DNA from: Gimesia chilikensis
Lineage (GTDB): Bacteria > Planctomycetota > Planctomycetia > Planctomycetales > Planctomycetaceae
Reading direction: 5' to 3'
Length of the DNA: 64,000 bases
NCBI RefSeq assembly: GCF_007744075.1
Contig: NZ_CP036266.1
Coordinates: 5,379,748-5,443,747, forward strand
Part shown: positions 16,915-43,205 of the stretch, in pieces
Numbering within the stretch: position 1 is the first letter of the stretch
Layout: each line of letters opens with the position of its first letter
The notes under the pieces: generated by a model
What the model was told of the DNA's origin: nothing
Database searches by the model: none
Seen by the model: the letters and a program-made list of their open reading frames with translations, nothing else
Translations under genes and position numbers: made by a program

Positions 16915-16929
16915 AATTTCTCCGCTTAG

Positions 16930-18060: not shown

Positions 18061-18107
18061 CATAGGATTTTCTCTACTAAGAAGATGCAAAGGCGACGAC
18101 TGACGTT

Positions 18108-24855: not shown

Positions 24856-27303
24856 CTAAAGGTTTTTCCTGCGGCTTCGCCCGTCTGGAACAGGCAACCC
24901 ACGTTGCTCATGCCAGTATTTCACAGACTCGGTAACTACGTTTCGGTCAATTTCCAATTCTTTGGCAATCTTGCCGTAAGTCATCTTTCGATCGAAGCGT
25001 TCCATCACTTTTTCAGCAACACTCTGATGAAGCAGAGTCTTTTGATGTTTATCGTCCAGTTGCCACCGCCGCTGGCGCCCATCTGGCTTCTTGAGCCCCA
25101 GTAGGGCAAACGCTTCATGTAAGAGAGTCGTTACTCGCGTCCTCCCCACTTTGAGAGCAACGGCAATGTTCTTTTCAGGTTCTCCAGCATCATACATCTT
25201 CTTTGCAGTCTCGCGCTGAAGGTCTGTCCGACTAGACTGAATGAAGTCGATAGAAATCTGCTTTGTATGTTCAGATCCGTCTCGATCTGGAGCGAAGTTT
25301 TTTAACTCACACGAAACACTGTGTGCGGAGATGCAGAATGCTCCACGTAAGGCCTTTCGTTTCCTCAAGGGGATATCAATCTCTTCAAGAATGATGTCAC
25401 CATCAATCAGACTGCGTAATGCATGGTTTGCGGAGGGCGACGTTTTCTGCAAATCCTCGTAAAGGTTTAATAGCCGCTCCTTCAGCCATGCAGCATCGGG
25501 AGCTTCTCCGTCATGTATGCATTCACGACGTAATTCAGTGAGTTCTTCCTGAAGAGCTTTCCGTTCTTCATTTCGTCTCTGTAGCCGTGAGTTCAGGTCC
25601 TGAGGGGGATCTCCCTCCTCAACAATATCCAGTAAACGTTCAATCTTCTGGTTCACCTTACTCAGTGCCCGCTCTTTTTCTCTAATTGCTGCCGGCACTC
25701 TACTCTCATACTCATGATAGCAGCGTTTTGTCTCTTTGAGAGCATAATCGAACCAGACTGCATCGTTCAGGATAATCTCACCGATCCGGTCCACGATCAT
25801 TTTCTCTACGTCTTTTATCTGCACAGAAGTGATCACATTGCAAATACCACGCTTGGCATCGCGACACTGAAACCTTCTCCCAGTGTTGTAAAATGGATTG
25901 CCGCACTTGGCGCATTTCAAGAGACCGTGCAGAAGCCTTACTTTTCGTCTTCCGTTGGTTTCCGATGACGATCCCTTCAATCGACCTTTAGCTTTTCGAT
26001 GCTGCTCCCATTTTTCAGAGTTGGCATCCAGCTTCTCTTGCGCTTTCCGAAATGTATGTTCATCCACAATACGGAGATCTGGACGTTCGCGCGTCCATTT
26101 TTCAGATTCTTCCTCTGGTCTTATTTCCTGAGTTAGCTTACCTGTTTCCGGATCCCGATCGTTCTGACACTCTCCCCAGGGCCAGATACCGATATACTTC
26201 CTGTTTGAGAGGATCCCCACCACGAGGTTGTGATGCCAATCATCAGTTGTAGATCGATGATCTTTGGGAGCTTTTTGCTGATTCAGCATTCTCACAATTT
26301 GGCCGATAGAGTATCCCTCATCTACATACCAGGTATAAATCTTGCTGACCCACTCTGCATGTTCCTCATTGATGACATACACCTTCCGCGGCTTACTGTT
26401 CCGACCTGATCGAGTTTGCTCCGTCCCCGGTACCGGTTCAGAGCCATATCCAAAACACCAGTCCCCCACGGAGTAGCCCTGCCTTAGTGCCAGCTCCTGG
26501 CCATCATGCACAGATTCACTCAGGTCCTTGATGAATTGTTCATGTATGACGGAGAAAATGGATGCAATCACTTCCCAGCCAGTCACTTCTGTGTCAATAC
26601 CTTCCATGACGCATATGCACCTGACCTTGTAGGTGTGAACGAGTTTTTTCAGGAGTGGCATCGTGATCACAGATTCCCGTGCCAGACGGCTGAGGCTGTA
26701 TAAATATAAAACGTTAAATTTCCCATCACTGGCTTCCTCAAGCAACCGGTCCAACCCCTCTCGCTTCAGCTTGGTTCCGGAGACAGCCTTATCTGTATAT
26801 TCCAGATCGTGGGAAATAGAATGCCCGTTGGAAATTGCCTTTTGTCTGCATTTTTCCTGTTGCCTTTCAATACTATCATCTCTCTGAAGCGAAGAACTGA
26901 AACGTGCATAACTGGCAGCTTTATCCTGTGCCTCATCCTTCCTGTGCTTTGTATTTCCACGTTTTCTCCTGCGGGGATATACAGATGAGTTCTCCACCGA
27001 TTGCGAGGACTGATTTACATCAGCCCGCATGAAAGCCCAAACCGAAGACTGGCCATAGAGCAGGAGAACTCCCGCGCACAAAACAAGCATTAAAAGAATC
27101 TGGCTCAGATACCCGCTATATGTCTTGCGGCTGGTCTTCGCCGTACCAGTAGAGAATGAAGACAAGGAAAAAGGAGTTCTCCCATGCGCGGTTATTGTTG
27201 CTGTCAAGACGGACATCCATTCCAGTGTCTGCCGGATACAGGTCACAGGAGTGGAAGACTTAGAAACATTTTCTGACTTCAGGTCGAAGAAACGGTGTAA
27301 CAT
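24856..27303 (-). CDS. Large serine recombinase with N-terminal membrane segment
   Basis: An 815-residue protein. The resolvase domain starts near residue 128: AASYARFSSSLQRDDSIERQ (catalytic Ser in the FSS at about 136-138), LYSLSRLARE, then the recombinase domain (YTWYVDEGYSIGQIVRMLNQ, LSNRKYIG), a zinc ribbon (LLKCAKCGNPFY...FQC...C) and a coiled coil. Two HTH-like segments close the protein. Unusually, about 125 residues precede the catalytic domain and include a hydrophobic helix at 66-90. The start at 27303 is supported by GGAG eight bases upstream; an ATG at 27030 would remove the membrane segment but lacks a ribosome site. It lies 87 bases after an integrase gene. Confidence 0.8.
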   Translation of the reverse strand: MLHRFFDLKSENVSKSSTPVTCIRQTLEWMSVLTATITAHGRTPFSLSSFSTGTAKTSRKTYSGYLSQILLMLVLCAGVLLLYGQSSVWAFMRADVNQSSQSVENSSVYPRRRKRGNTKHRKDEAQDKAASYARFSSSLQRDDSIERQQEKCRQKAISNGHSISHDLEYTDKAVSGTKLKREGLDRLLEEASDGKFNVLYLYSLSRLARESVITMPLLKKLVHTYKVRCICVMEGIDTEVTGWEVIASIFSVIHEQFIKDLSESVHDGQELALRQGYSVGDWCFGYGSEPVPGTEQTRSGRNSKPRKVYVINEEHAEWVSKIYTWYVDEGYSIGQIVRMLNQQKAPKDHRSTTDDWHHNLVVGILSNRKYIGIWPWGECQNDRDPETGKLTQEIRPEEESEKWTRERPDLRIVDEHTFRKAQEKLDANSEKWEQHRKAKGRLKGSSSETNGRRKVRLLHGLLKCAKCGNPFYNTGRRFQCRDAKRGICNVITSVQIKDVEKMIVDRIGEIILNDAVWFDYALKETKRCYHEYESRVPAAIREKERALSKVNQKIERLLDIVEEGDPPQDLNSRLQRRNEERKALQEELTELRRECIHDGEAPDAAWLKERLLNLYEDLQKTSPSANHALRSLIDGDIILEEIDIPLRKRKALRGAFCISAHSVSCELKNFAPDRDGSEHTKQISIDFIQSSRTDLQRETAKKMYDAGEPEKNIAVALKVGRTRVTTLLHEAFALLGLKKPDGRQRRWQLDDKHQKTLLHQSVAEKVMERFDRKMTYGKIAKELEIDRNVVTESVKYWHEQRGLPVPDGRSRRKNL

Positions 27304-27390
27304 TTTGTGATCTCCATTTAAATCGGGAGGTAACATAAATTTTTTGCGATCTGTTCCATCAGACCGCCAGATAAATAAGGGAGCAGAAAA

Positions 27391-28494
27391 CTATGGCTCT
27401 GACCGATTCAATCGCTGCATCGCAGCCTGTGACTCCCGGTCAGCGATATGCGTGTAGTGTTGCAGTGTCTTATGATCGACGTGACCCACCCACTTGCGGA
27501 TGATCGCTTCAGGGATGCCCTGCACAATGGCCCGCGAAATAAAGCTGTGCCGGAACGTGTGCAGGTGCCCTTTCAGTCCCAGCTTTTTAAGAGTCCGTTT
27601 GAGAGACTCCAGCAGTCTGCGTTCCGAGATCTGATGATCGCCTTGGGGATATCGCTTGGACGCCCTGGCCGTAAAGACCCAGCGACTGCGCCGGGGCTGT
27701 GCCTGCAGAACCTTACGAGCACGAGCAGAGATCGGGATCGAACGTACGTTCCCGGTCTTTGTCGTCCAGTCATCCTTAGGCCGGACATGAATTAGTCCCT
27801 GCTTCAGCTCAACATCGTCCCAGGTCAGCCACCGGAGTTCCCCGATCCGCAGTCCGGTTTCTGCCAAGAATGTAAATACCGGCCAGTGAACCTTGGAACT
27901 GGACGTAAGGACCTGTTCGACCTCCTCCCAACTCCAGAACGGTTGCGGTTCTGATTTAGGTTCAGTGAGCTTCAAACCTTCCAGCGGATCCTCGTTGAGC
28001 ATGCGACGCGTCTTGGCAAAGAGTAAGAGGCGACGGATCACTCCCACTTCGGTATAGATCGTCTTGGGTTTTGCCCCATCCTGTTTTCGGTATTGCCGGT
28101 AGGCATCCACAAAGCGCATGTCGAGCTGTTCCAGCTTATAAAGATCACGTGATTCAGCAAAATCAGCGACCCCTTTCAGAACCTGTCTGTATTTACTGAT
28201 GGTCTTCGGACGCAACTCTTCCGTTTTGCAACTTTGAATGAGTGCTTCTATCGCATCGGTAATCAGAGCTGGTTCAGATTCAACCGTTTTTACCGCCTCT
28301 CCTTTTAACAGTTCTCGCTCCAGGGCAAGTGCCCTGGCACGCGCTTCCTTCTTATTCGAAGTTTTCAGAGATTTGCGAATCTGTTTACCGCGAAATTGCA
28401 TATTGAGATACCAGACACCGTTCCGGTTAAATATCGATGCAACCTCACCTACACGTTCATTATTCATATTGACGTTTTTAATTTTCGTATTCAT
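27391..28494 (-). CDS. Tyrosine recombinase / integrase
   Basis: A 367-residue site-specific recombinase with an N-terminal core-binding domain (about residues 60-160) and a canonical catalytic domain: Arg in TGLRIGELRWL, beta-strand Lys region KTGNVRSIPI, HTFRHSF, WVGHVDHKT and the nucleophile Tyr in LQHYTHIADRE. All catalytic residues are intact. The ATG at 28494 is preceded by AAGGAG, which lies in the end of the upstream HTH gene. Together with the HTH protein and the serine recombinase it forms a mobility module. Confidence 0.9.
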   Translation of the reverse strand: MNTKIKNVNMNNERVGEVASIFNRNGVWYLNMQFRGKQIRKSLKTSNKKEARARALALERELLKGEAVKTVESEPALITDAIEALIQSCKTEELRPKTISKYRQVLKGVADFAESRDLYKLEQLDMRFVDAYRQYRKQDGAKPKTIYTEVGVIRRLLLFAKTRRMLNEDPLEGLKLTEPKSEPQPFWSWEEVEQVLTSSSKVHWPVFTFLAETGLRIGELRWLTWDDVELKQGLIHVRPKDDWTTKTGNVRSIPISARARKVLQAQPRRSRWVFTARASKRYPQGDHQISERRLLESLKRTLKKLGLKGHLHTFRHSFISRAIVQGIPEAIIRKWVGHVDHKTLQHYTHIADRESQAAMQRLNRSEP

Positions 28495-28910: not shown

Positions 28911-30251
28911 GTGATTATGGTTTCAGGAAACTGCGCAGAATCGAATTTCGGCACTGTCAGAATTGAACTCCCGGAAAGTCATAGTGAGTTAACCCCAGGG
29001 TTAGAAAGGGCGTGTCAAGTAGCCACTGCCAGACATGTCTACCGGTGGGGCCCATCAGACACCTTGCGAGGTGAGTTACCGGCTGATTTTGAGCTACGGT
29101 TTAACTGTCTGACAGACAAAGACGGCTTACGGCGTTTTTATCCGACACTGGGCAGTGAGGGGTTAATCAGTATGCTTTTCGCCGGTGGGCTGGCCATTTC
29201 AATCAAGCAGAATGGACTCAGTGGTGAGCAGGCCCGGAACTCTCGAATGAAGTTTCTGCTGTTTCAGAAAATGCGAAAGCTGAATAATCGTCAGCAAAGA
29301 AAGTTTCAGGGGATCAAGGACCTCTATATAAAGAGACCGGGACGTTCTGATAAAGGCCAACGCAATGTACTGCCTGACTCCCTAGGTATGATTTCTGATT
29401 GCGACGACTTCCCTTGGGGGATGAATAAACTGCGAATAGAGGGAGAGAAACTGGCCAGGGCGTATGGATACAATCGACCAAGTATGCATCAGACGATTGA
29501 GTACGGATTATTCGCAGCGGCGCGATCGCGCCCTCTCATGATTGAAGAGCCAGAGCAAGTCGAAGGTCTGTTGCGCATTGCCCTGTATAACGAACAGAAT
29601 ACTTGTGACTGCGATTTTCAGACCAGAGAATGGATTGAGGGTGAAGTAGTGGCGGCGACTGATGCTCATCTGAATGACTCGCAAGATGATTTCAATGAGT
29701 GGTTTTGGGGAAGCAAAAACTCCTTCTTGAAGCAAATCGCCAGAAAACGATGTCCTTACGGAAATGTTACGAATCCCATGGTCCGTAAGGTCCTACTGGA
29801 TTTAGGATGGCAAGCTTATACCTACGTTGCTGACTGCATTCACGCGCAGATGTGTAACTTTCAGAATGCCCTGTTAAATCCTTTGAATAAACAGGAGCGA
29901 CAGATTTATGAGATGCTTTATCAGAAGCAAAGCTATCTGGCAAATTTACCGCTATTACTGCTCTATGAACGAATACCCTTTTTGAAAGCCCCCATGCTGG
30001 CCGTTCTCAACGGCCAAAACGATTTTGAGTTTGCGGGTACTGTCCATCAGCTTTTGTATTACTATTCGCAAATGTCTGATTCGCGTCGCGGGGCAGATCG
30101 CCTGATACAAGATTTTCATGTGTCCTGCCGATCACAGAACCGTCCCATAAAAATTTTGGAATTTGATGAGTCATGCCCCGTGGAAGACAATGGAAAACGT
30201 CGAAAGTACAAACCGCTCTATGATGAAGATAATCAAGGCTGGGATGACTGA
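28911..30251 (+). CDS. Hypothetical protein
   Basis: A 446-residue soluble protein of no recognised family. The N-terminal region is cysteine-poor; the middle holds KFLLFQKMRKLNNRQQRKFQ and an acidic-aromatic stretch DFNEWFWGSKNSFLKQIARK; the C terminus is charged. AGGG at 28901-28904 is six bases before the GTG at 28911; ATG 28917 is the alternative. The gene is divergent from the recombinase module and converges on the small gene at 30233, overlapping it by 19 bases. Confidence 0.55.
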   Translation: MIMVSGNCAESNFGTVRIELPESHSELTPGLERACQVATARHVYRWGPSDTLRGELPADFELRFNCLTDKDGLRRFYPTLGSEGLISMLFAGGLAISIKQNGLSGEQARNSRMKFLLFQKMRKLNNRQQRKFQGIKDLYIKRPGRSDKGQRNVLPDSLGMISDCDDFPWGMNKLRIEGEKLARAYGYNRPSMHQTIEYGLFAAARSRPLMIEEPEQVEGLLRIALYNEQNTCDCDFQTREWIEGEVVAATDAHLNDSQDDFNEWFWGSKNSFLKQIARKRCPYGNVTNPMVRKVLLDLGWQAYTYVADCIHAQMCNFQNALLNPLNKQERQIYEMLYQKQSYLANLPLLLLYERIPFLKAPMLAVLNGQNDFEFAGTVHQLLYYYSQMSDSRRGADRLIQDFHVSCRSQNRPIKILEFDESCPVEDNGKRRKYKPLYDEDNQGWDD

Positions 30252-30391
30252 TTTTTCTTGTGCTTTATTTTCTGCTCTGTATGCCAGCGTTTTGCCAGTG
30301 CAGTTGCGATCACGCGTGCAAATTCCTTTGCTCCTGTATTTAATGCTTGTTTTTTACCAGATCGATTTGAGCGTTGTATTTTAGGTTGCAT
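30233..30391 (-). CDS. Small basic protein downstream of E1
   Basis: A 52-residue lysine- and arginine-rich product (QPKIQRSNRSGKKQALNTGA, then KEFARVIATALAKRWH). The ATG at 30391 has a strong AAGGAG seven bases before it, which is the main support. It lies 157 bases after the E1 gene on the same strand and could be the last gene of that operon. It overlaps the 3' end of the convergent gene. No family is recognised. Confidence 0.45.
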   Translation of the reverse strand: MQPKIQRSNRSGKKQALNTGAKEFARVIATALAKRWHTEQKIKHKKNQSSQP

Positions 30392-30548
30392 TCTTTCTCT
30401 CCTTACAATGTCTGATGATAAATTAAACGACTTTAGAGATATGGGCTGACCAGATCATAAAACTGCCATTTAGGTGTCGGAAAACTGTTGCTGACATTGC
30501 TGATTTTCAACAAAACAGGTTTTCCTGATAAACAATTAGCTCCTGTTT

Positions 30549-31202
30549 TCAAATACAAAGCTCTCCCGCAAGCAGATTCAAAGTCAGATCTCGATCTACA
30601 GACAGGTCGCGTAGCCAGCGTGTGCACTGATGTAGCATCAGTCCTGCGGCAATACCGGCGGTATAGATCGTACTGCGGGAAGTGCAGGTCCCGGTCTGCG
30701 CTTCTGCCTGGGGAAACAGCGCAGTGTCGTAGTGCGTGCGGGATGGTGAGTCTACGGCTGTCAGGATCCGCAGGACCTCGCCTCGCATGCGTCCGTCACT
30801 CCAGAATGCGCACTGATCACGGAGCGTCCTCCAGATGGCAGCCCGGCTGCTGATTGAGTCCACGCAGCAGAAGACGACTTCTCCCGTTCCCAGCCCCGGC
30901 CGGAAACGGTCATTTACCATTTCAACTTCAATCCCGGCATCAATGGCCAGCAGCGCCCGGGCCGTTGCTGCCACCTTAAACTGCCCCAGATCCCTTTCCA
31001 GGTAGCCCTGCGTGGTAATGTTTGTCGCTTCCACCCGATCGAAGTCCACCAGCTGGAGCTGACGTACCCCCAGGGACGCCAGTTGCAGGGCCACCTGCCT
31101 GCCGATGGCCCCTACTCCGATGACGGTCACCGTTAAGGAGCGCAGTTTTTCAGCGGGAACGAGTTCCGACTGACGTTCAAAACGATCCAGAGTTGTATTC
31201 AT
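30549..31202 (-). CDS. E1-like ThiF-family adenylyltransferase of Ubl operon
   Basis: A 217-residue compact E1-like protein: FERQSEL, the ATP-binding loop [11 protein letters not shown] (about residues 27-36), [17 protein letters not shown], and a C-terminal [20 protein letters not shown] segment whose cysteine is a candidate for thioester formation. It resembles the ThiF protein of PRTRC-type gene clusters. It should adenylate the small ubiquitin-like protein at 33094 and pass it to the E2 at 31802. It is 55 bases downstream of the JAB gene. It lacks the CxxC zinc pair seen in the other two E1 proteins of this window. Confidence 0.85.
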
Positions 31203-31257
31203 AAAAGTCTCTTTCTTTTAAAAAATGATTGATTTAGAACATGCTGCACCTGGCCCC

Positions 31258-31917
31258 TCAGATGGGGAGCCAGGGCCATTGTTCGGAAAGATAAGGTTCG
31301 TCACCGGGCAGGAAATCCAGGTCCCAGATGGGAGCCACGGGGGTTTCCTGCACACACTGCTGGAATTCCCCCTCCCAGGCAGCCTGATTGCTGCCGGTAA
31401 ATTCCTCCCGAAAATCAATGCCCACAGAAAGCGGCTCTGGCTGGGAGTGACCTGTGCGTTTCAGCTCAGCATAGCTGGCTCCGTTTCGAGCCAGAATAAA
31501 CATCACTGCCCAGTCACAGTTGCCAAAAACGCGGGCAAAGGTTTCGTGATCGACACCACTCGGCTCCGCAGAATTTCCCGGATGTGTATGAATCCAGATC
31601 CGGGCAAACTGCTCTGGATGCCGCCCCGCGTCGATTTGGTCGTCAAAGTAATCGGCAACCGCTGTGTCGTCGAAAGCGACGGTGACTTCGGTGCAGGACT
31701 GGCTGACCAGGACGATGTCCTTGACGAATCGGGGCTGCCCGGGATCGGTAATCCCGAAGCCGCCCACCTCAGTCATTCCGCGGTCACGCAGGTAGATCAG
31801 CTTAGCCCAGGCATACGGGCTGAACTTCAACAGGCGACGTTTCCTGCGCTGGGGACGCTTCCGACGCGGACGATGCAGCAGGCGATGTGTTACTGGATGA
31901 GTCTTCGGATGGGGCAT
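31258..31917 (-). CDS. JAB/MPN (JAMM) peptidase of Ubl operon
   Basis: A 219-residue protein with a basic N terminus and a JAB domain. The metal site is complete: Glu50 in TEVGGFGI, H110-T-H112, seven residues, S120-x-x-D123 (HTHPGNSAEPSGVDHE). It should mature the ubiquitin-like precursor and/or remove it from targets. The ATG at 31917 has GAGGAAG about eight bases upstream and lies 116 bases inside the end of the E2 gene, so the two genes overlap in different frames; the basic N-terminal tail is read from the same DNA as the Ser-rich E2 tail. Confidence 0.85.
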   Translation of the reverse strand: MPHPKTHPVTHRLLHRPRRKRPQRRKRRLLKFSPYAWAKLIYLRDRGMTEVGGFGITDPGQPRFVKDIVLVSQSCTEVTVAFDDTAVADYFDDQIDAGRHPEQFARIWIHTHPGNSAEPSGVDHETFARVFGNCDWAVMFILARNGASYAELKRTGHSQPEPLSVGIDFREEFTGSNQAAWEGEFQQCVQETPVAPIWDLDFLPGDEPYLSEQWPWLPI

Positions 31918-32866
31918 GAGAATCTTCCTCGCTTTCTTTAAGACAGGCAGGACAGGTTTCAGAACAGAGACAGGAGTGACAGCAGCATTCGCTGCAGGAA
32001 GCACAGGTCGACAGGCAGCTGCGACAGAAGATTTCGTTACACGATTCGCAACAGTCAGCGCAACTGGAACAGAGGGCGTCCCCACAACGGGCACAGCCCC
32101 GCCTGCAATAACCGCAGGTGGTCTGCTCACAAATCGAGCAGGTGTGACTCTCATTGCGCGAAACAGAGTCACCGCAGTCGGCACACTCGAGACTGTACCA
32201 GCGACTCAGCGGGACGTAAGCCGAACCCGAGTTGTACGTGTGCAGGATCTGCTGGACCAACAGAAAGAAATCACCGATCCGCCCCTCGGCCAGAGCCCTG
32301 CTGATGGGGATTTTTCCTTCCCCCTCACACAGGGTATCCGCCTGCACGTGCGGATGATGGACATCGTCGTCTCCGGTTTCGGCCAGGGAGACGACCCGGT
32401 AAGGTTGTGGCTCTCCGAGCTCACTCCAGCGCAGTCGGATCTCGAAACAGCCCAGATCGATGCCTTCCAGAACAATGGGCGGCGTCTGAACGACAATTTC
32501 TTTTTCGTCCCAGTCAATCGCGACAGCTTCAAACTCGGAGGAGAGTGCACGGAGTTCAGCATCAATCTCGCGTAGCGAGGGGACGGTCGTGGTAACCTGA
32601 TTTTGCAGCAGTCCGTCCCGGTAAGCCGCCCACTCCCGGATGGCTGAAGTCAGAGACTGCTGGAACCTTTCACGACAACGTCGGCTGGCGATCGGATACT
32701 GTTTTAAACAGGCTTTGTGATAGAGACGCTCCCAGCGGTTCACCCTGAGCCAGGCATCTTGGGGAAGCGGTGGCAGTCGCTCCTGCCGGGATGCAACTTC
32801 GACATACCGCACTGCGACCTCCCGTGCCACACGGAGCCAATGCCGCGACTCCTGATCTTGGTGCAT
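31802..32866 (-). CDS. E2-like conjugating enzyme fused to cysteine-rich RING-like region
   Basis: A 354-residue protein in three parts. Residues 1-95 are helical. Residues 98-225 form an RWD/UBC-like domain with HPHVQADTLCEG (His171-Pro-His173, Cys180), matching the HPN...C catalytic layout of E2 enzymes, then FFLLVQQILHTYNSGSAYVP. Residues 228-308 hold about thirteen CxxC-type pairs (CADCG, CSIC, CGYC, CARCGD, CSSC, CESCNEIF and so on), consistent with RING/B-box-like zinc fingers. The acidic Ser-rich tail is probably disordered. E2 and an E3-like zinc region in one chain would allow direct ligation. AGGAG lies before ATG 32866, under a hairpin at 32885. Confidence 0.8.
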   Translation of the reverse strand: MHQDQESRHWLRVAREVAVRYVEVASRQERLPPLPQDAWLRVNRWERLYHKACLKQYPIASRRCRERFQQSLTSAIREWAAYRDGLLQNQVTTTVPSLREIDAELRALSSEFEAVAIDWDEKEIVVQTPPIVLEGIDLGCFEIRLRWSELGEPQPYRVVSLAETGDDDVHHPHVQADTLCEGEGKIPISRALAEGRIGDFFLLVQQILHTYNSGSAYVPLSRWYSLECADCGDSVSRNESHTCSICEQTTCGYCRRGCARCGDALCSSCADCCESCNEIFCRSCLSTCASCSECCCHSCLCSETCPACLKESEEDSHAPSEDSSSNTSPAASSASEASPAQETSPVEVQPVCLG

Positions 32867-32884
32867 AACAGACTCCTTAAAATG

Positions 32885-32916
32885 AAGAGACCACCCGGTT
32901 TCACAGGTGGTCTCTT
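32885..32916 (-). promoter_or_regulatory. Intergenic hairpin before the E2 gene
   Basis: AAGAGACCACC (32885-32895) pairs perfectly with GGTGGTCTCTT (32906-32916), 11 bp, 10-base loop. It ends 18 bases before the E2 start and has no long T-run, so an RNA-processing, stability or partial-termination role is more likely than full termination. Confidence 0.6.
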
Positions 32917-32950
32917 TGATGGAATAAAAACTCGAAACGACGGGGATCGT

Positions 32951-33142
32951 TCAACGACGTCGGCGAAACGGCTTACTGGATCGACTGTGGGGACGAATCT
33001 CACCCCCATGCAGCATGCTTGCTGCCATGACGCCGACACTGATCCAGAAGACAAGCCATGACTCGGTGGCCCCGCCGATCGATGCTGAGACGATCACGAT
33101 AATGTAGAAATAGAGACTGTTGAGTCGTTGTCGGGCTCCCAT
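32951..33142 (-). CDS. Small membrane protein in Ubl operon
   Basis: A 63-residue protein with two hydrophobic segments ([14 protein letters not shown] and [17 protein letters not shown]) and a very basic C terminus ([11 protein letters not shown]). AGGAG lies five bases before the ATG at 33142. It overlaps the 3' end of the ubiquitin-like gene by 49 bases in another frame. The role is unknown; it could tether the pathway to the membrane. Confidence 0.6.
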
Positions 33143-33417
33143 AGGGCTCCTTTCAACCGGGACAAGAGAAAACAGACGAGCGGTAACAGGGGCAATCGTG
33201 CCGCCCCCTCAATCTTGGTGGGAGTGATCGAAACACGATCTCCTTCCTGCAGGATGTAGTTGGCAGTTGTTGGCTGACGATTGACACGGATCAGGTAGTC
33301 TTGTGGACGTCCATGGGGCAGTCGCTGCTGAAACAGCGCCGCCACACTCAGGCCGGCACTGATTTCAATCTGGTCAGCAAACCCGGAACCGTCATTGTTG
33401 ATAAATAGAATTTGCAT
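33094..33417 (-). CDS. Ubiquitin-like (PRTRC-C/ThiS-like) protein
   Basis: A 107-residue protein. Residues 1-72 have the beta-grasp signature of the PRTRC system protein C and related ubiquitin-like proteins: [39 protein letters not shown], then [18 protein letters not shown] 35-residue hydrophobic tail follows Gly71-Ala72-Ala73, where related proteins end or are cut, suggesting a precursor that the operon's JAB peptidase might process. AGGAGA is five bases before ATG 33417, so the frame extending to 33450 is rejected. It should be the conjugated or carrier component for the E1, E2 and JAB genes downstream. Confidence 0.8.
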
Positions 33418-33471
33418 ACATTTCTCCTGGATGTTTGAGTAAAAATTCATTCGCTGTGGTCAGCGAAGAGG

Positions 33472-33753
33472 TCAGTAGTCTTCGGGTAACAGAATGTTGG
33501 TCGCAGAGCGGTCTGCCACGGTGATGATCCAGAACTTGATCTGGTCCGCTGTGTGGTAAACCGACAGCAGTCGATCACCGTTCAGTAAAGCGGCATCATT
33601 GGCTTCCGCATCCGCGGGACAGCAGTCGCCCCAGTCACCGGCAAGATGGCGGGCCAGGGCGCGCTGCATCTCATGCTGTGGTAACTGCTCCAGCGCGTTG
33701 CGTGTGGCCAGAATCATGCCCAGCGAAAACCGGGGACGATTGGATCGAACCAT
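33472..33753 (-). CDS. Small conserved accessory protein
   Basis: A 93-residue protein with the pattern GMILATRNALEQL, ARHLAGDWGDC, AALLNGDRLLSVYHT and WIITVADRSATNILLPEDY. I recognise this as a widespread small protein of plasmids and mobile islands with no assigned function. The ATG at 33753 follows GGGAG; an in-frame GTG at 33759 is the alternative. It precedes the ubiquitin-like gene by 54 bases. Confidence 0.7.
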   Translation of the reverse strand: MVRSNRPRFSLGMILATRNALEQLPQHEMQRALARHLAGDWGDCCPADAEANDAALLNGDRLLSVYHTADQIKFWIITVADRSATNILLPEDY

Positions 33754-33792
33754 AGTCACTCCCTGTCAAATAGTAGATGATTCATGACCAGA

Positions 33793-33975
33793 TCAGTCTT
33801 CGTTGGTCTGAAAGTAGAATTGCCACATGCCCCAGAGCGTGGCGGGCAAAGCCAGCAAGAGAGGCCAGCCCAGAAAACAGCCGGCAATCAGACAGGCCAC
33901 AGTCCAGAAACTGATCGAATGGAGAGTGTGCTCCAGTAATTGGGCTTCTCGGGTATCTTTAGGATGAGAGTCCAT
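33793..33975 (-). CDS. Small two-helix membrane protein
   Basis: A 60-residue protein with hydrophobic helices at about residues 21-38 and 40-54 (FWTVACLIAGCFLGWPLLLA...LWGMWQFYF). It starts three bases after the stop of the upstream gene, which makes coupling likely. No family is recognised. Confidence 0.55.
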   Translation of the reverse strand: MDSHPKDTREAQLLEHTLHSISFWTVACLIAGCFLGWPLLLALPATLWGMWQFYFQTNED

Positions 33976-33978
33976 GGT

Positions 33979-34200
33979 CTAAATCAACCCTGGTACTCGG
34001 CCACAGCGTTGGGCAAACAACGCCACATTCTGCTGCAGACTGAGCTCATCCCAGTCCACTGACTGAGGCGGCCGCAGGTCTGGTTCGGGATCAAAGTTCA
34101 CTTGCATTGGGTTGGCGAGACTGAAGCCCCGCTGCCGAATGGCCCGCAGATCTTCGCCGGTGGCTGCGGCCACCGCCTGGTCCAGGTCCTGTTGAGTCAT
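33979..34200 (-). CDS. Small acidic protein in Ubl operon
   Basis: A 73-residue soluble protein: LDQAVAAATGEDLRAIRQRG and a Pro/Asp-rich middle (NFDPEPDLRPPQSVDWDEL). It has a good site (GAGGAG five bases before ATG 34200). I believe this type recurs in similar planctomycete clusters, but have no functional assignment. A hairpin sits 26 bases upstream of the start. Confidence 0.6.
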   Translation of the reverse strand: MTQQDLDQAVAAATGEDLRAIRQRGFSLANPMQVNFDPEPDLRPPQSVDWDELSLQQNVALFAQRCGRVPGLI

Positions 34201-34225
34201 CGTTCACTCCTCATGAAAAGAGAAT

Positions 34226-34251
34226 ACGACCACCGGCACGCGGGTGGTCGT
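34226..34251 (-). promoter_or_regulatory. Intergenic hairpin in Ubl operon
   Basis: ACGACCACC (34226-34234) pairs with GGTGGTCGT (34243-34251), 9 bp, 8-base loop, followed on the minus strand by ATTCTCTTTTC. It shares the GACCACC/GGTGGTC core with the hairpin at 32885. Confidence 0.55.
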
Positions 34252-34293
34252 GAGAAAATACACAACCACCCCGCGCTCACAGGGCAGTACCGT

Positions 34294-34539
34294 TTACGTG
34301 TTCGAGAGCAGCCAGTGCTGCTCCAGCCAGGCGACCTCGGCGGCCAGGGCCTCTGATCTCAGGGGAAACGGCCCCAGCAGGGGACCGCTCACCGGACTGA
34401 GGTCAGCCGTCCATTGTCCGTCTGCCGTTGGTTCCACATGGGAGCCCCGCTGGATCTGTGGTGTTCCCAGCGCAGTCAGTTCCAGAGTTTCGTCATAGAG
34501 GCAACGGATGGTTGCTTCCGGGGTAATCAGCAGCTCCAT
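34294..34539 (-). CDS. Small conserved accessory protein
   Basis: An 81-residue protein: ELLITPEATIRCLYDETLEL, SHVEPTADGQWTADLSPVSG, then LRSEALAAEVAWLEQHWL. It reads as a complete small domain that I associate with the same type of island; function unknown. Its ribosome site (AGGTGA) overlaps the stop codon of the DUF3150-like gene, indicating coupled translation. Confidence 0.65.
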   Translation of the reverse strand: MELLITPEATIRCLYDETLELTALGTPQIQRGSHVEPTADGQWTADLSPVSGPLLGPFPLRSEALAAEVAWLEQHWLLSNT

Positions 34540-34548
34540 CTGGTCACC

Positions 34549-35499
34549 TCACTGCGCACGCCGCAAGATATTACGGCGGGGGCGATCCAGCAGCAGTCCT
34601 TCCAGGGAAGACTGGACTCCCGAGAGCTGCGAGGCGACCTTTTGCCGCAGATTGCCGTTATCCCGCAACTGCTGCGGAGCAACACCAGTCACAATCTGCT
34701 GCGCCCGTTCTACGAGTGCATCGAGTTGATCATTGGAGCGGACATTGAGCTGCTGAAATCGTTCAAAGAAGTCTGACAGATTGGAAACCGCGGTATCGCG
34801 GAACACCTTTGGTTTGCCATCGGATTGACCACTCAAACGCTCGGTCAGGTGTTCGACCAGTCGTCCCAGTTCTTCCAGGAAAGCCTGTTCGGCCAGTTGC
34901 ACGGCCTCATCAAACCGCTGCTGTACCCGCTGGCATTCCTGGACATAGACTTCCGGGTTCAGTTGTTTGAGATAGTTTGGTGGCTCCACCGCCGGAAAAT
35001 CATGCTCGATGGCAAACAGCCCTGCCAGGGAGTGGGGATAGTCGGCGGGATCATAGAGGTCCCCCAGGCGGATGCGCGCGGCCGCCTTGAGTTCTTCGAA
35101 ATGCCGGTCCAGTTCGCGTACCGCGGTTTCCAGTTCTACCTGGAACTCGCTCATCCGCTGATCAAAGTCGGTGATCTCTGACTGCCGGATCAGGCGAATA
35201 CCCGCTTCAGGATAGGGCAAGGAGATGCCTTTCCAGTAAGCGACAGCCCTTCCTCGGACCGCGGTCACGGCTTTGAAGGCGGGATGCGTGGTATCCAGCA
35301 GCTTTTTCCCGGCGGAGAGAAATTTCCCCTCGGCACCGAAGGAATCCGCGGCCTGGTTTTTCTGGACGGCCGTGAGGGACTTGCGGACGCCCAGCCAGGT
35401 GAAACTGAGTCGGGCTGCCGCCATCGTGGTCCGCAGTCGCTCGGCTGGCCTGCCGCTGGAGGCGGCAGGCTGTGGTTCATCGAGAATAGAGTGATTCAT
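34549..35499 (-). CDS. DUF3150-like coiled protein
   Basis: A 316-residue, largely helical protein. The arrangement LLDTTHPAFKAVTAVRGRAV, YPEAGIRLIRQSEITDFDQR and long amphipathic helices (ELETAVRELDRHFEELKAAA) is like DUF3150, a family found on plasmids and phages. It has no catalytic motif. AAAGGAG lies four bases before ATG 35499. Its conserved place among the small accessory genes suggests it is part of the same system, perhaps a scaffold or substrate. Confidence 0.55.
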   Translation of the reverse strand: MNHSILDEPQPAASSGRPAERLRTTMAAARLSFTWLGVRKSLTAVQKNQAADSFGAEGKFLSAGKKLLDTTHPAFKAVTAVRGRAVAYWKGISLPYPEAGIRLIRQSEITDFDQRMSEFQVELETAVRELDRHFEELKAAARIRLGDLYDPADYPHSLAGLFAIEHDFPAVEPPNYLKQLNPEVYVQECQRVQQRFDEAVQLAEQAFLEELGRLVEHLTERLSGQSDGKPKVFRDTAVSNLSDFFERFQQLNVRSNDQLDALVERAQQIVTGVAPQQLRDNGNLRQKVASQLSGVQSSLEGLLLDRPRRNILRRAQ

Positions 35500-35531
35500 A
35501 ATGCTCCTTTATTAAGAGTGGGAAATGAAAA

Positions 35532-35563
35532 ATGCCGCCCAGCCCCAAAGGACTGAACGGCAT
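35532..35563 (-). promoter_or_regulatory. Intergenic hairpin before DUF3150-like gene
   Basis: ATGCCG (35532-35537) pairs with CGGCAT (35558-35563); on the minus strand it is followed by TTTTTC, so a weak terminator or attenuator is possible. Confidence 0.45.
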
Positions 35564-35600
35564 CAACAGGAGAACCAGAGTCTCTTTAAATGATCGCATG

Positions 35601-35999
35601 TCAGCGTGGGGGTGGGCTGAGTGGAGTTTTCGCTGTGGACGGGGGCAGGTTCAGGTTCAATGACTTGGCCACCGTGACTTTCAGGCCCCCATGCAGGGTG
35701 TCAGTCAGCATGACGCGTTTCGGTGTGAATTCTTCGTCTTCCACGAGAATCACGTTCCCGGATTTGAGGTTGATGAAGTGATGCGAGGTCAGAAAGCCTG
35801 TCTCGTCAAGATAGGACATCTGCAGTATCCCTTCCGGAGTAATTTTCACATCGTGCACGTTCAGCAGGTCAGACGCGTGGCGTTTGATCTCAACGGAACT
35901 CCCCTGGGGACCGACGCCTTGCTCGTCCTCGGGGGCAATCAACAGTATGGCGATCAGAATCACCAGGAAAATGATCGCACTGAGAGTGACTTTTTCCAT
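35601..35999 (-). CDS. Membrane-anchored hypothetical protein
   Basis: A 132-residue protein with one N-terminal membrane helix (VTLSAIIFLVILIAILLIAP) and a beta-rich soluble domain ending in a Pro-rich tail (LPPSTAKTPLSPPPR). GGAGA lies before ATG 35999, which is preferred to the upstream in-frame start at 36035. It is the first gene of the operon and divergent from the HTH gene. Function unknown. Confidence 0.6.
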   Translation of the reverse strand: MEKVTLSAIIFLVILIAILLIAPEDEQGVGPQGSSVEIKRHASDLLNVHDVKITPEGILQMSYLDETGFLTSHHFINLKSGNVILVEDEEFTPKRVMLTDTLHGGLKVTVAKSLNLNLPPSTAKTPLSPPPR

Positions 36000-36123
36000 A
36001 TTTGTCTCCTGTCTGGGCTGCAGTTCTGTATCCAAAACGCAGCGGTCATAGTCAATTGTGGACCATTAGGATGATACTTATAGTCCGTGGTTTTATCGTC
36101 GCTGTCAAGTGTTAAATGTCTGC

Positions 36124-36345
36124 ATGGCAAAACGCAAAGACATTTTGAAGCGATTCGGCGAACGGGTGCGGGAACTCCGCAAGGAACAAGGCTATTCCCA
36201 AGAGAATTTTGCCTACGCCTGCGAGCTGGACCGGACCTATGTAGGCGGGATTGAACGGGGCGAACGGAATGTCGCCCTGCGGAACATTGAGCGGATTGCC
36301 GCTACGCTGGGAATCAGCGTGGCTGAGCTGATGGACGGGGTCTGA
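36124..36345 (+). CDS. XRE-family HTH regulator
   Basis: A 73-residue single-domain regulator: [20 protein letters not shown], then [20 protein letters not shown] and [13 protein letters not shown], the standard HTH_XRE layout. It is transcribed opposite to the Ubl operon, whose first start (35999) lies 124 bases away, so it likely represses or activates that promoter and its own. Its stop abuts the end of the convergent gene at 36346. Confidence 0.85.
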
Positions 36346-36666
36346 TCAGACCTCGGAAGAGGCCTCTGGCAACAGCAGTGTGCCGACCAGATCGGTAGGA
36401 TTGTTACAGGCCTCGAAAGCGCCCTGCAATGAAGAGTGTAATTCTCTGTCTTGCAACACGGTTCTCGATTCGTTGGAAACAACGTACTTGAGGTGAGCCG
36501 TTTTCAGACGCGATCTCAGTTGCTGGATTTCCGCTGGCGTCCAGATTTGCTCAGAGTGTGGAGTCTCAGCATAGATCCTCAAACACTGTTCGTCCTCAGG
36601 ATCCATTTCTTCTGCCCAGAACTGCAGGGCCGCGATGATGAGCGTAATATCTGCTTGTATCAGCAT
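36346..36666 (-). CDS. Hypothetical protein downstream of AAA+ ATPase
   Basis: A 106-residue soluble helical protein (LIQADITLIIAALQFWAEEM, TPAEIQQLRSRLKTAHLKYV). It follows the AAA+ ATPase gene by 25 bases on the same strand and is the last gene of that block. No family is recognised. Confidence 0.6.
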   Translation of the reverse strand: MLIQADITLIIAALQFWAEEMDPEDEQCLRIYAETPHSEQIWTPAEIQQLRSRLKTAHLKYVVSNESRTVLQDRELHSSLQGAFEACNNPTDLVGTLLLPEASSEV

Positions 36667-36691
36667 GTTGCTCCTTTCCGGGACTTATGAG

Positions 36692-38179
36692 TCAGTTGAC
36701 AGAAGCCAGGTGTTTGAGGTTCCGGCGGGACGGTTTTCTCTGATCCTGTGCATGATAAATGCCTGGACGATCGGCATCCAGACAGCGACCGCTGGCCCAT
36801 TCACGCAAACGGTGGATGGATTCCGCAGCCGTGACCGCAACTGGGACCACATTCTGCTGGGCTTGGACCAGGGTAATCTGTAGTAGTCCCGCCAGCCGGC
36901 AGCAACTGCGGATCTCTGCCCCGGTCCAGTCGGTATCGTCGGGACGGGATTGCTCCGGATCGAGGTCATACAGCTGGATGTACTGACTCCAGATCCGGTC
37001 TTTCTGTTCCCGTCCCGGCAGATCGACAAAGAACAGACCGTCGAAGCGTTCCGAGCGACCGAATTCGGGTGGGAGTTTGGAGATGTCGTTGCTGGTGGCC
37101 ACAACGAATACATCGGAAGTATGGTCATTCAGCCAGGTCAGAAACTGGCCAAACAGGCGGGACGCAACTCCGCTGTCAGTCTGCCCCGAGTTGCCGGCAC
37201 CAGCAAACGCTTTTTCGATCTCATCAATCATGAGTACGCACGGCGCCATGGCATCCACGATCTGTAACGCCTGACGTGTTCGTTTCTCTGATTCCCCAAC
37301 GAGGGAACCCAACAGGGCTCCCACATCCAGGATCAGTACTGGGCGGCTGACCTCCCGGCCCAAGCTTTTACAGAACGCGGATTTCCCGCAGCCGGGTGGA
37401 GAGAGTAATAACACGCCTCGCGGCCGCAAGTGCTGGTTTTGTCGTTGCGGTGAGAGTAGTGCAGAGCGAGTGAATTCCTTGAGGGATTCAAGGCCCCCCA
37501 GGCTATCGAACCGTTCATCCCCGCGGTGCAGAGTCAGTAGTCCTGATTTTTTCAGCGTCTGGGTTTTCAGTTCCCAGATGGCAGCGGGGCTGATCCGTCC
37601 TTCTCGCACCAAGGAAAGTGAAAAAGCGCCCTCCGCTTCGAAGCGACTGAGTCCGCTGGTGGCATCCAAGACGGACTCTAGTTCCTGGTCCTCAGGCAGT
37701 TCGCCTGGTTCGGTCGCGATCTCCCGGGCGATTTCAGCCAGCTGGTCCCGATCCGGAAGGGCATGTTCGAGCACCACGAACAGTTTTTCCAGCTCCGCAG
37801 GTAGCGAAACGACTGGAGCAAGCACAACGATGAAGGTCCGGTTCTGTTTGCCGGTTAAGATCTGTTGCGCCAGGGCCTGTACGATCTCGGCGGACTGGAT
37901 AAAGCGGTGGAAGTTCTGCAGTACCAGGACCGCGGTACCTTCAGGTGTGGCAAACGCGTTGATGGCTTTGATGGCAGCCAGGGGATCGGTGCTACCCACG
38001 ATACTCGTGTCGTCCGTGCCCTGCAGTCCCTGATCGATATCCCAGGTGGCCAGTCGCCAGGATTCCTCGCGACAGAGCTGAGCCAGTTCAACCAGGGCTT
38101 CCTGTTGTTCGTGACTTACGACCCAGATACCGGTGAAGCAGGCACGAACGTACTCGATAAAAGTTGTTTTCAATGTCAT
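36692..38179 (-). CDS. Ycf46-like AAA+ ATPase
   Basis: A 495-residue protein: an N-terminal RecA-like region (residues 1-210, WVVSHEQQEALVELAQLCRE) and a C-terminal AAA+ domain with Walker A LLLSPPGCGKSAFCKSLGRE, Walker B CVLMIDEIEKAFAG, a sensor segment VVATSNDISKLPPEFGRSER and an arginine finger. This is the arrangement of Ycf46-type ATPases of cyanobacteria and planctomycetes. It sits directly downstream of DUF2997 and DUF1257 (Ycf35-like) genes, a known partnership. Possible roles are unfolding or remodelling of targets; a link with the adjacent ubiquitin-like pathway is inferred from position only. Confidence 0.8.
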   Translation of the reverse strand: MTLKTTFIEYVRACFTGIWVVSHEQQEALVELAQLCREESWRLATWDIDQGLQGTDDTSIVGSTDPLAAIKAINAFATPEGTAVLVLQNFHRFIQSAEIVQALAQQILTGKQNRTFIVVLAPVVSLPAELEKLFVVLEHALPDRDQLAEIAREIATEPGELPEDQELESVLDATSGLSRFEAEGAFSLSLVREGRISPAAIWELKTQTLKKSGLLTLHRGDERFDSLGGLESLKEFTRSALLSPQRQNQHLRPRGVLLLSPPGCGKSAFCKSLGREVSRPVLILDVGALLGSLVGESEKRTRQALQIVDAMAPCVLMIDEIEKAFAGAGNSGQTDSGVASRLFGQFLTWLNDHTSDVFVVATSNDISKLPPEFGRSERFDGLFFVDLPGREQKDRIWSQYIQLYDLDPEQSRPDDTDWTGAEIRSCCRLAGLLQITLVQAQQNVVPVAVTAAESIHRLREWASGRCLDADRPGIYHAQDQRKPSRRNLKHLASVN

Positions 38180-38220
38180 AAGCAGTCTCCCGTATAAAGA
38201 TTTGGTAATTAAGAACCAAC

Positions 38221-38415
38221 TCAGTGTCCTTCCTGCAGGTGCTCTTCTTCTGAGGCATGCTGATGGAAGTCCGATTTGAGTTGTTCTGACGTTGCTTTGC
38301 CAAGGGCTTGTTCCAGCAACCGGCTGGCATCACGGCAGTCGTTGCCAGTGAAGCCGTGTGTTTCGATGCGGGATTGGCCGTCCGGGGCGATGATGATTTC
38401 GATTGATTGGTTCAT
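38221..38415 (-). CDS. DUF2997 family protein
   Basis: A 64-residue protein with the DUF2997 pattern: SIEIIIAPDGQSRIETHGFT, DCRDASRLLEQALG and the C-terminal SEQLKSDFHQ. It overlaps the DUF1257 gene by four bases and precedes the AAA+ gene. DUF2997 and DUF1257 proteins are habitual small partners of Ycf46-like ATPases; their biochemical role is unknown. Confidence 0.8.
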   Translation of the reverse strand: MNQSIEIIIAPDGQSRIETHGFTGNDCRDASRLLEQALGKATSEQLKSDFHQHASEEEHLQEGH

Positions 38416-38780
38416 GCAGCACCTCCAACCTGAACCGTGAGCTTGATTGAACCATCTTCCAGGGGTTGCTCACGGACTGTGTGTCCCAGCTTGTGGGCTT
38501 CCAATTTGGCTTTTTCGACGGCATACCCTTGCAGGAATCTGTCCAATTCGTGGCGAGTACCCCAGCGACCTTCGAAATTGTCATAGGCCAGCTGGGCCGT
38601 TTTGACGTCGCAGACAACGGGGTAACGCCAGTTGCGTAATTGGACCGCCCAGCCGGCAGCGGTGCTGTTGAAGAGCTGGAATTCCCCCTGGACCGGGGGC
38701 GGCAATTGCAGGCGCTGACAAGCCGTGCGTATTGCTGCTGGATCTCTGATTTCGGTTTGAATCTGCACGATGTGTGACAC
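38412..38780 (-). CDS. DUF1257 (Ycf35-like) family protein
   Basis: A 122-residue protein: SHIVQIQTEIRDPAAIRTAC, WAVQLRNWRYPVVCDVKTAQ, YDNFEGRWG, FLQGYAVEKAKLEAHKLGHT, the DUF1257/Ycf35 signature. The GTG at 38780 gives the family-typical SHIV start and has GGAG six bases upstream; a longer frame to 38819 is rejected. It is the first gene of the AAA+ block, below a leader hairpin with a T-run. Confidence 0.85.
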   Translation of the reverse strand: MSHIVQIQTEIRDPAAIRTACQRLQLPPPVQGEFQLFNSTAAGWAVQLRNWRYPVVCDVKTAQLAYDNFEGRWGTRHELDRFLQGYAVEKAKLEAHKLGHTVREQPLEDGSIKLTVQVGGAA

Positions 38781-38837
38781 ACTGGACTCCTTTGTGAAAC
38801 GGACAAGGGAAAAAGTCATACTGGCGAGACCTGAAGC

Positions 38838-41813: not shown

Positions 41814-43205
41814 ATGACGCACTACTCAGAGTACCAGGAAAAATGCTCGAATGTCATTCGTGAAGTGATATCTGATCGCGGATGTCAACCAATTCTATTC
41901 GTTGGTTCTGGTCTGTCTAAACGATTTTTCGACGCCCCGAATTGGGATGAACTGCTTGAACATCTCTGCTCAACGTGCCCTGCGATTCAATATGAGTACG
42001 GATACTATAAGCAGAAATATGAAAGTATGCCCCAAATAGGGTCTATCATCGCAGAACATTATCGCGAATGGGCATGGAGTAAATCTGGAAAAAAACACTT
42101 CCCAGCAGAATTGTTTGGTGCGGATCTTCCCAATGATATATACATGAAGCATGCCGTAGCTCAACACTTCAATGATATTACTCCGACGCTTTCGAAAATT
42201 CGGAAAGTCGCTGTAAGGAAAGAAATAGAAGCATTAAGAAATATTCAGCCCCACGCTGTGATATCAACAAATTATGATCAATTTCTCGAACATATATTTC
42301 CTGATTATGAGCCCATTATTGGACAGCAAATACTTCGGGCAAATTACGTAAGCGTCGGAGAAATATTTAAAATCCATGGTTGTGCAACAAATCCCCAGTC
42401 ACTCGTACTCACAGCTGAAGATTATGAAGACTGGACCAGTAAAAAGAAGTATTTAAGTGCAAAGCTTCTTACTTACTTTGCTGAGCATCCGCTAGTCTTT
42501 CTTGGGTATAGTGGATCTGATGCTAACATTCGGGCAATTTTGTCGGACATTGACGAAATCCTTGCAGAGCCAGATGGTCTCGTATCGAATCTGTTTTTCA
42601 TTCGTTTTAATCGGAATGCTGAAGCTGCAGAAAATCTACCCACAGAGAAATTGATCGAACTTCAAGAGGGACGTTCAATTCGTGTACGAAATATCGATGC
42701 GAGTAACTATGAATGGATATTTAATGCATTGGGAACTGGAGCACCGATCGAGCACATTAACCCTAAAATACTCAGGGCATTATTGGCAAGAAATTATGAG
42801 CTTGTACGTCATGATATTCCGAGGAAGACAGTGCAGATCAATTTTGAGACATTAGAGCATGCCATAAATGTGGAAGGCCAATTCGCCCAGCTGCTCGGAA
42901 TATCCACTTTAGATAATCCAAGTGTATTCAACGCCGTCTATCCATTTACACTTTCGGGAGTGGCAAAAGAGCTTGGATATTCGTATTGGTCTCATGCAGA
43001 TAAATTGATCAAACAGATACGGGATGAACGTGGTGTTGACATTAAGAGCTTCGATAATAAATACCACATTACCGTAAAGACAGGATCGTCTGATACTTCT
43101 GTAACTCAGAAATATTCGCAGGCATGTGTGGACTTACTACAAGCCGTTAGGAATGGAACCGAGTACACCTTAGACCTCACAGAACTGAGTGGTCCCGATC
43201 AATAA
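41814..43205 (+). CDS. SIR2-family defence NADase-like protein
   Basis: A 463-residue protein. Residues 25-300 form a SIR2-like domain: PILFVGSGLSKRF (NAD-binding loop), AVISTNYDQFLE with Asn153, FKIHGC with His188 and VFLGYSGSDANIR. The remaining 160 residues are a separate helical domain that may sense the trigger or oligomerise. SIR2 domains of this defence type usually degrade NAD after phage sensing. No partner gene is certain; the DUF2806 gene just upstream is a candidate. Confidence 0.8.
   Translation: MTHYSEYQEKCSNVIREVISDRGCQPILFVGSGLSKRFFDAPNWDELLEHLCSTCPAIQYEYGYYKQKYESMPQIGSIIAEHYREWAWSKSGKKHFPAELFGADLPNDIYMKHAVAQHFNDITPTLSKIRKVAVRKEIEALRNIQPHAVISTNYDQFLEHIFPDYEPIIGQQILRANYVSVGEIFKIHGCATNPQSLVLTAEDYEDWTSKKKYLSAKLLTYFAEHPLVFLGYSGSDANIRAILSDIDEILAEPDGLVSNLFFIRFNRNAEAAENLPTEKLIELQEGRSIRVRNIDASNYEWIFNALGTGAPIEHINPKILRALLARNYELVRHDIPRKTVQINFETLEHAINVEGQFAQLLGISTLDNPSVFNAVYPFTLSGVAKELGYSYWSHADKLIKQIRDERGVDIKSFDNKYHITVKTGSSDTSVTQKYSQACVDLLQAVRNGTEYTLDLTELSGPDQ

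Follow-up and report, generated by a model that had tools for sequence, protein, structure and literature searches.

A predicted ubiquitin-like conjugation cassette with an E2–zinc fusion, found in planctomycetes and on viral contigs

Introduction

Why should a bacterium carry, in a single run of genes, a ubiquitin-like protein (Ubl), an activating enzyme (E1), a conjugating enzyme (E2) fused to a string of zinc fingers and a JAB/JAMM peptidase? The question is raised by a 64,000-nucleotide stretch of the Gimesia chilikensis genome (NCBI RefSeq assembly GCF_007744075.1, contig NZ_CP036266.1, positions 5,379,748 to 5,443,747; hereafter the window, whose own numbering is used below). An earlier note, made from the letters of the window alone, placed an operon for a compact ubiquitin-like pathway at 30233–36035. 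An open reading frame check of the window found the frames at the coordinates given there and the gene run is real, but the range was too short: a single minus-strand operon spans 30549–38819, reaching a DUF1257 gene at 38819. In our view the operon probably encodes a compact system of Ubl conjugation and deconjugation that serves conflict among phages, other mobile elements and their hosts. From the sequences, Ubl conjugation by the cassette proteins is strongly inferred. The core of the cassette consists of the following features.

33094–33450, minus strand: Ubl, a ThiS-like beta-grasp protein of 118 amino acids; the core ends in KIEGA and is followed by a C-terminal extension
31802–32866, minus strand: E2–zinc fusion of 354 amino acids (homologues, AlphaFold model, Foldseek, HPH...C motif)
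32591–32866, minus strand: N-terminal helical region of the fusion, residues 1–92, preceding the UBC domain (model)
32195–32578, minus strand: UBC-like E2 domain, residues 97–224 (AlphaFold model and Foldseek E2 matches)
32348–32356, minus strand: HPH codons of the E2, within the UBC-like domain
32327–32329, minus strand: codon of the predicted catalytic Cys180, within the UBC-like domain
31943–32185, minus strand: zinc array, C228–C308, with ten conserved CxxC motifs (homologue alignment and models)
31258–31917, minus strand: JAB/JAMM peptidase, starting within the E2 gene (Prok-JAB, E 6e-4, under the curated cut-off)
30549–31202, minus strand: E1, a ThiF-type adenylating enzyme of 217 amino acids (PF00899, E 7e-25)

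The E2 domain

Residues H171-P172-H173 and C180 of the fusion protein are exactly where the earlier note placed them, and the HPH...C motif (HPHx6C) is present in 86 of 86 bacterial homologues with a readable motif, that of locus L090 being disregarded as the spurious product of a misread frame. An AlphaFold model of the whole protein (mean pLDDT, the predicted local distance difference test score, of 81) shows a helix, four strands, the HPH/Cys segment and then further helices, which is the UBC order, the secondary structure having been read by eye. The usual last UBC helices are absent from the model and the zinc array lies in their place. The first eight Foldseek matches are all E2 enzymes, including UBE2H, UbcA1, E2-25K and Ube2W (probability up to 0.87), and VIA-align of the full model, the list from which is dominated by the helical N-terminus, includes a UEV domain (Z 7.1, root-mean-square deviation 3.6 over 124 residues). 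Structure prediction of 31802–32866, proposed in the earlier note as a check, thus agrees with its call of an E2-like protein, with a UBC-like fold around Cys180.

Several results weigh against this assignment. The Foldseek E-values for the E2 matches are weak (0.07–0.27, best 0.066), an E2-domain profile found no match among PDB sequences and a Pfam scan of 58 E2 domains identified no E2 family, Prok-E2 included. Since sequence profiles find no known E2, homology rests on fold and motif, and the modelled fold and the motif, taken together, support membership of the UBC/E2 superfamily.

The Ube2w family is distinguished by HPH, its second histidine replacing the asparagine at the oxyanion hole (PMC4630614). 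Members of this family (Ube2W and UbcA1, both among the top fold matches) resemble the present protein in having HPH instead of HPN; they lack a zinc array, however, use eukaryotic ubiquitin and have been shown to tag N-termini (PMC4630614), whereas the present E2 carries the array. N-terminal tagging by this E2 as well is no more than a lead.

The zinc array

About 80 residues of CxxC zinc fingers had been predicted to be fused to the E2, and this is what is seen: between C228 and C308 lie ten CxxC motifs, the 20 cysteines of which are conserved among homologues and would make five sites if coordination is tetrahedral. Modelled in isolation, the region reaches a pLDDT of 90. Foldseek matched it to FYVE with a probability of 1.00 and to RING1 of HOIP with a probability of 0.97, the latter over 31 residues only, and alignment with a FYVE structure gave a Z of 6.3 and a root-mean-square deviation of 2.1 over 49 residues; PHD and LIM are other near folds. 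At the sequence level the links are to B-box zinc fingers, in a setting where cysteine-rich sequences match easily, and a search of 63 zinc domains gave no match to the Pfam RING or Prok-RING families. The models support a cross-braced array of the RING/FYVE/PHD kind. The proposal of an E2 and a RING-like region in one chain is supported as regards the fusion; the zinc part is a predicted cross-braced array with FYVE and PHD as its closest folds, and its likeness is not specifically to RING. The label of RING ligase is not yet justified for the array, and RING-like ligase (E3) action is offered here as a hypothesis.

Against such a role stands the possibility that the array serves to bind a partner, lipid or DNA rather than to promote transfer. 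One form of this idea keeps conjugation as real but makes the array a targeting module (for phage structures, lipid or DNA) without E3-like activating function; it is a serious contender that in our judgement falls a little short of evenly probable. FYVE and PHD being the best folds, the sequence links to B-box and an array size that varies among viral relatives from none (viral contig L246) to about 21 CxxC motifs all point towards targeting, yet the array directly replaces the C-terminal helices of the UBC domain and HOIP RING1 also matches it.

Ubl, JAB peptidase and E1

The remaining core assignments of the earlier note are borne out by family matches and ligands. All 12 members of one Ubl alignment match ThiS (best 8e-6), the E1 is recovered by PF00899 and the JAMM peptidase possesses every metal ligand, namely the glutamate of TEVGGFG and the HTHPx9D motif, which is kept in 81 of 83 relatives. 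A Ubl profile found no match in the PDB. The peptidase gene likely begins at the methionine of MPHPKTH near 31917, about 116 nucleotides into the E2 gene, as no start codon is present at 31866. The E1 has one ThiF adenylation domain and a cysteine within a GTCTSRST motif that is retained in complete bacterial and phage relatives.

The Ubl core ends in KIEGA in 87 of 95 proteins and in KIEGG in three; the protein terminates at this point in only ten of the 95, the rest bearing 1 to 48 extra residues, and the C-terminal extension probably needs trimming. Because the last core residue is conserved (alanine, rarely glycine or serine) and the tail is not, we infer that the mature Ubl ends in Gly-Ala and that the JAB peptidase does the trimming.

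That the Ubl and E1 are closest to the ThiS and ThiF models might be taken to indicate a sulfur-carrier or cofactor pathway. We regard this as very improbable indeed, given an E2 with an invariant catalytic motif, a JAB peptidase, a Ubl end that is mostly Gly-Ala and an operon containing no cofactor enzymes.

Gene order, distribution and architecture

When the E2 was the sole query, a scan of whole genomes gave no match, and the alignment designated A1 was too divergent to yield patterns. The Ubl query succeeded, returning 85 relatives from 84,980 genomes, of which 80 were kept, nearly all titled planctomycetes. Among 76 distinct, independent loci with enough downstream DNA, Ubl, E2–zinc, JAB and E1 are all present in 69 and their order is kept in 67; the recurrence of the same order in so many independent loci excludes chance, and the search for it across planctomycetes, suggested in the earlier note, shows that Ubl and E1 do co-occur elsewhere. 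Distances among the protein families are correlated (r 0.45–0.82, above all 500 permutations), which fits joint inheritance. Presence is patchy: 30 of 120 Planctomycetaceae genomes encode the E2–zinc protein and in a sample of the phylum it is rarer than in the family, at 14 of 294 genomes, several of these being zinc-region-only matches. In the host genome, a single contig of 8.29 Mb, the E2–zinc gene is present in six copies, each inside such an operon, which together with the variable zinc arrays suggests an arms race.

In the window the operon runs, 5' to 3', DUF1257, DUF2997, AAA ATPase, HTH/p106 pair with a 144 amino acid protein, p316, p81, p73, p60, p95, Ubl, E2–zinc, JAB and E1. The genes upstream of the core are as follows.

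38412–38819, minus strand: DUF1257 protein (PF06868, E 0.011, sub-threshold; conserved in the operon)
38221–38415, minus strand: DUF2997 protein (PF11211, E 5e-16)
36692–38179, minus strand: AAA ATPase, an N-terminal domain and one AAA domain (PF00004, E 9e-28)
36109–36666, both strands: helix-turn-helix (HTH) regulator on the plus strand and p106 on the minus strand; within the operon here, upstream or beside it in other copies
35601–36035, minus strand: p144, 144 amino acids, seen in the present copy only
34549–35499, minus strand: p316, strongly conserved, with no Pfam family
34294–34539, minus strand: p81, small conserved operon protein (comparison of copies)
33979–34200, minus strand: p73, small conserved operon protein (comparison of copies)
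33793–33975, minus strand: p60, small protein not found in other loci
33472–33759, minus strand: p95, conserved small protein, found in a subset of copies

The ATPase is CDC48-like. p316 had been described as DUF3150-like, an identity that we dropped: it matches neither DUF3150 nor any other Pfam family. The HTH/p106 pair changes position between copies and looks like a mobile regulator pair. Across loci, two architectures are seen. Type A has a DUF1257-DUF2997-AAA-p316-p81-p73 module; type B (Phycisphaerae-like) has no AAA module, and several of its loci encode a DUF2958 protein as well as a GHKL ATPase. Some copies, the present one not among them, have between DUF2997 and AAA a protein with EGxxD...DRE motifs that is TOPRIM-like by eye and has no Pfam match.

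Comparison with known systems

Bacterial ubiquitin-like operons have been known since 2006 (PMC1779556). The Bil systems (BilABCD, bacterial ISG15-like) resemble the present operon in uniting Ubl, E2, JAB and E1 and in their defence setting; BilA, however, has two Ubl domains, BilB a CEHH motif and BilD two adenylation domains (PMC11354881), whereas here there is one Ubl domain, an E2 with HPHx6C, not CEHH, and a zinc array, and a 217 amino acid E1 with one ThiF domain. Bil membership was dropped on these grounds. Iyer 2006 type 6d, or PRTRC, systems likewise have separate Ubl, E2, JAB and E1 genes, but the type 6d E2 lacks the conserved histidine of the classical E2 fold (PMC1779556) and the PRTRC_ThiF model gave 32.6 bits against a cut-off of 144.75, so this assignment too was rejected. 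The E1/E2/JAB logic in defence is shared with type II CBASS (cyclic-oligonucleotide-based anti-phage signalling system; Cap2/Cap3) and with 6A-MBL, whereas the E1 and E2 here are unfused and the operon has no nucleotidyltransferase or metallo-beta-lactamase gene. Membership of CBASS type II was set aside since the operon has no CD-NTase (cGAS/DncV-like nucleotidyltransferase), its E1 and E2 are separate and the SMODS gene of the window lies outside it.

A full cascade with a RING-type part is known from the Caldiarchaeum subterraneum E1/E2/RING/JAMM/Ub operon, where the RING is a separate small protein (PMC5654768), unlike the array fused to E2 here. Bub operons are alike in bacterial ubiquitin-like conjugation, in having regulators nearby and in an immune-type setting (PMC13373217). 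Relative to the tested Bil, PRTRC, CBASS-II and Pfam prokaryotic E2/RING definitions the cassette is a separate type, Bub having been compared by description only. The idea of a separate planctomycete type holds to the extent that none of the tested definitions fits, but not as to host, given that the cassette also occurs on no fewer than 23 viral contigs. A 2011 study reportedly proposed bacterial RING E3s and may describe relatives of the present system. No description of such an E2–zinc fusion, of its multi-copy setting in islands or of the phage cassettes came up in literature searches, which does not prove that none exists.

Genomic setting

The window is a defence island, and mobility genes adjoin the operon.

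24856–28494, minus strand: large serine recombinase and tyrosine integrase (PF00239, PF07508, PF00589)

Serine recombinases are found near 27 loci. At the flanks of operon copies, 135 genes matched 324 PADLOC models (E<=1e-8) compared with nine for 134 control genes drawn from regions chosen arbitrarily in those genomes, an enrichment that is qualitative and clear in direction, with the point to be set against our reading that PADLOC counts are per model, not per gene, and related models match the same protein. No tRNA was found near the operon and a plasmid search with the E1 gave no match.

A pathway of host regulation or protein quality with no connection to phages, its tagged proteins being unfolded by the AAA ATPase, would fit the CDC48-like partner, the reversal that a JAB peptidase allows and the six copies in one genome. 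We think it unlikely in view of the patchy presence (30 of 120 genomes of the family), the recombinase neighbours, the defence-island flanks and the carriage by phages described below.

Phage-borne cassettes

With the Ubl as query, IMG/VR yielded four contigs with the whole cassette, and with the E1 many more: Ubl, E2–zinc, JAB and E1 occur together on at least 23 distinct viral contigs of up to 181 kb. All 23 have HPx...C, which reads HPH in 18 or more; the classical HPN stands at this place in the E2s of the phage relatives L207 and L244. JAMM is kept in 22 of the 23 and the E1 cysteine in all that were read. Six viral contigs also have the AAA gene, most with p316. A terminase large-subunit match was obtained in nine of 25 viral records tested, portal, head maturation protease and terminase families are represented among sampled genes of cassette-bearing contigs, and contig L235 has a complete bacterial-type operon together with a terminase. 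A search for the T4 capsid protein Gp23 was empty in viral contigs and equally in controls, and hence uninformative. Deposited phages searched with phage E2 and JAB queries gave no match, and the finding of the cassette in many large uncultured phages therefore rests on the IMG/VR contigs.

Because viral contigs also carry the cassette, 'antiviral' is just one of at least two readings, and its carriage by phages speaks against an exclusively defensive function. In such conflict the cassette could serve the host as defence, the phage as counter-defence, or both sides, and a shared ubiquitin-like means of fighting or hijacking one another appears to exist in bacteria and phages. The cassette might be primarily a phage weapon that tags proteins of the host or of rival phages (for counter-defence, takeover or superinfection exclusion), the planctomycete copies being captured or prophage-derived. 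This we hold only tentatively. Besides the 23 or more contigs with the full cassette, it draws on the greater diversity of viral E1s (mean identity 0.43, against 0.55 for bacterial E1s) and on an E1 tree in which most viral E1s fall outside the bacterial clade and three inside; the deep nodes of that tree are weak and without support, however, its root is uncertain and the bacterial copies lie among defence genes and recombinases. With such weak deep nodes, transfer between bacteria and phages may have gone in either direction. It is conceivable, although we would lean against it, that large phages encode complete and self-sufficient cascades of Ubl, E1, E2 with an integral zinc E3-like array, a deconjugase and sometimes an AAA unfoldase, and that the planctomycete operons are one captured or shared branch of this viral diversity, which would make theirs a ubiquitin-like pathway of viral kind within bacteria.

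Some viral sets depart from the common form. The E2 of viral contig L246 (6444–7190) has HPF...C and lacks the zinc array, which makes it a naked-UBC variant of the family. L208 and L209 have a Ubl protein of 221 amino acids and a second E1/E2-like pair, these second sets lying at 2288–5230 and 2020–5220, respectively, near Rad50/Mre11-like genes. In the crAss-like phages L297 and L299 a JAB-type protein (HSHN...D) directly precedes a ThiF-type E1, and more genes lie upstream of the pair; having no HPH E2 and no zinc array, they were set aside and probably represent a phage ubiquitin-like system of another, 6d/PRTRC-like type. Xanthomonas phage PhiXhv-12, a cultured jumbo phage (L298, 3247–6621), encodes an 892 amino acid protein that combines HPH...LCLG with a cysteine-rich tail and adjoins a ThiF-type E1. 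It is possibly a distant relative, one that the family profiles do not detect.

A proposed pathway

For the favoured reading, a conjugation and deconjugation system serving conflict, every enzymatic step, the E3-like role, the targets and the conflict function are read from the anatomy of the cassette. JAB would trim the Ubl extension, exposing -Gly-Ala; the E1 would adenylate the trimmed Ubl, form a thioester with it and hand it to Cys180 of the E2, where H173 would occupy the place of the oxyanion-stabilising asparagine of HPN. The zinc array, in place of the UBC C-terminal helices, may hold the acceptor, or E2~Ubl in its active state, serving as a built-in E3-like part, and JAB could afterwards take the tag off. 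The AAA ATPase, p316, DUF1257 and DUF2997 probably form a co-inherited module that remodels or senses the tagged target, the cassette presumably being carried along with recombinases, both within defence islands and by large phages.

If this is correct, a distinct single-chain E2–zinc design would be added to the bacterial ubiquitin-like systems, whole ubiquitin-like cascades would be seen to travel in phages and a minimal system would be at hand for asking whether an E2 can incorporate E3-like function. With HPH and HPN switching inside one family, the part played by the oxyanion residue can be put to the test, as can processing by JAB through the tail that often follows Gly-Ala.

Other genes of the window and of related loci

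On the opposite strand, adjoining the operon, is a gene for a 446 amino acid protein with no Pfam family (28911–30251, plus strand), a 48% relative of which adjoins the operon copy in L051. Near another copy, L056, lies a CRISPR (clustered regularly interspaced short palindromic repeats) array of about 30 repeats (11590–13872), the spacers of which gave no convincing match to viral loci; a single copy of the repeat adjoins the operon copy L078 of the same genome.

Elsewhere in the window, a SMODS/AGS-C nucleotidyltransferase (SMODS gene 15349–16914) stands beside a SAVED protein, a CBASS-type pair at 15349–18090 on the minus strand. A TIR-domain protein (10818–11669) and a SIR2_2-domain protein (41814–43205) are typical defence effectors, and a cytidine-deaminase-like domain is joined to an HATPase_c_4 region at 53956–55494 on the plus strand. 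The window also contains a second ubiquitin-like set on the plus strand, in which a ThiF gene (4824–5693) overlaps a JAB gene (5546–6184), with a ThiF match of near-equal score and length elsewhere in the genome (7068953), and a third system, a JAB–ThiF fusion (55962–57743, minus strand) adjoining a WD40 protein (58264–62241).

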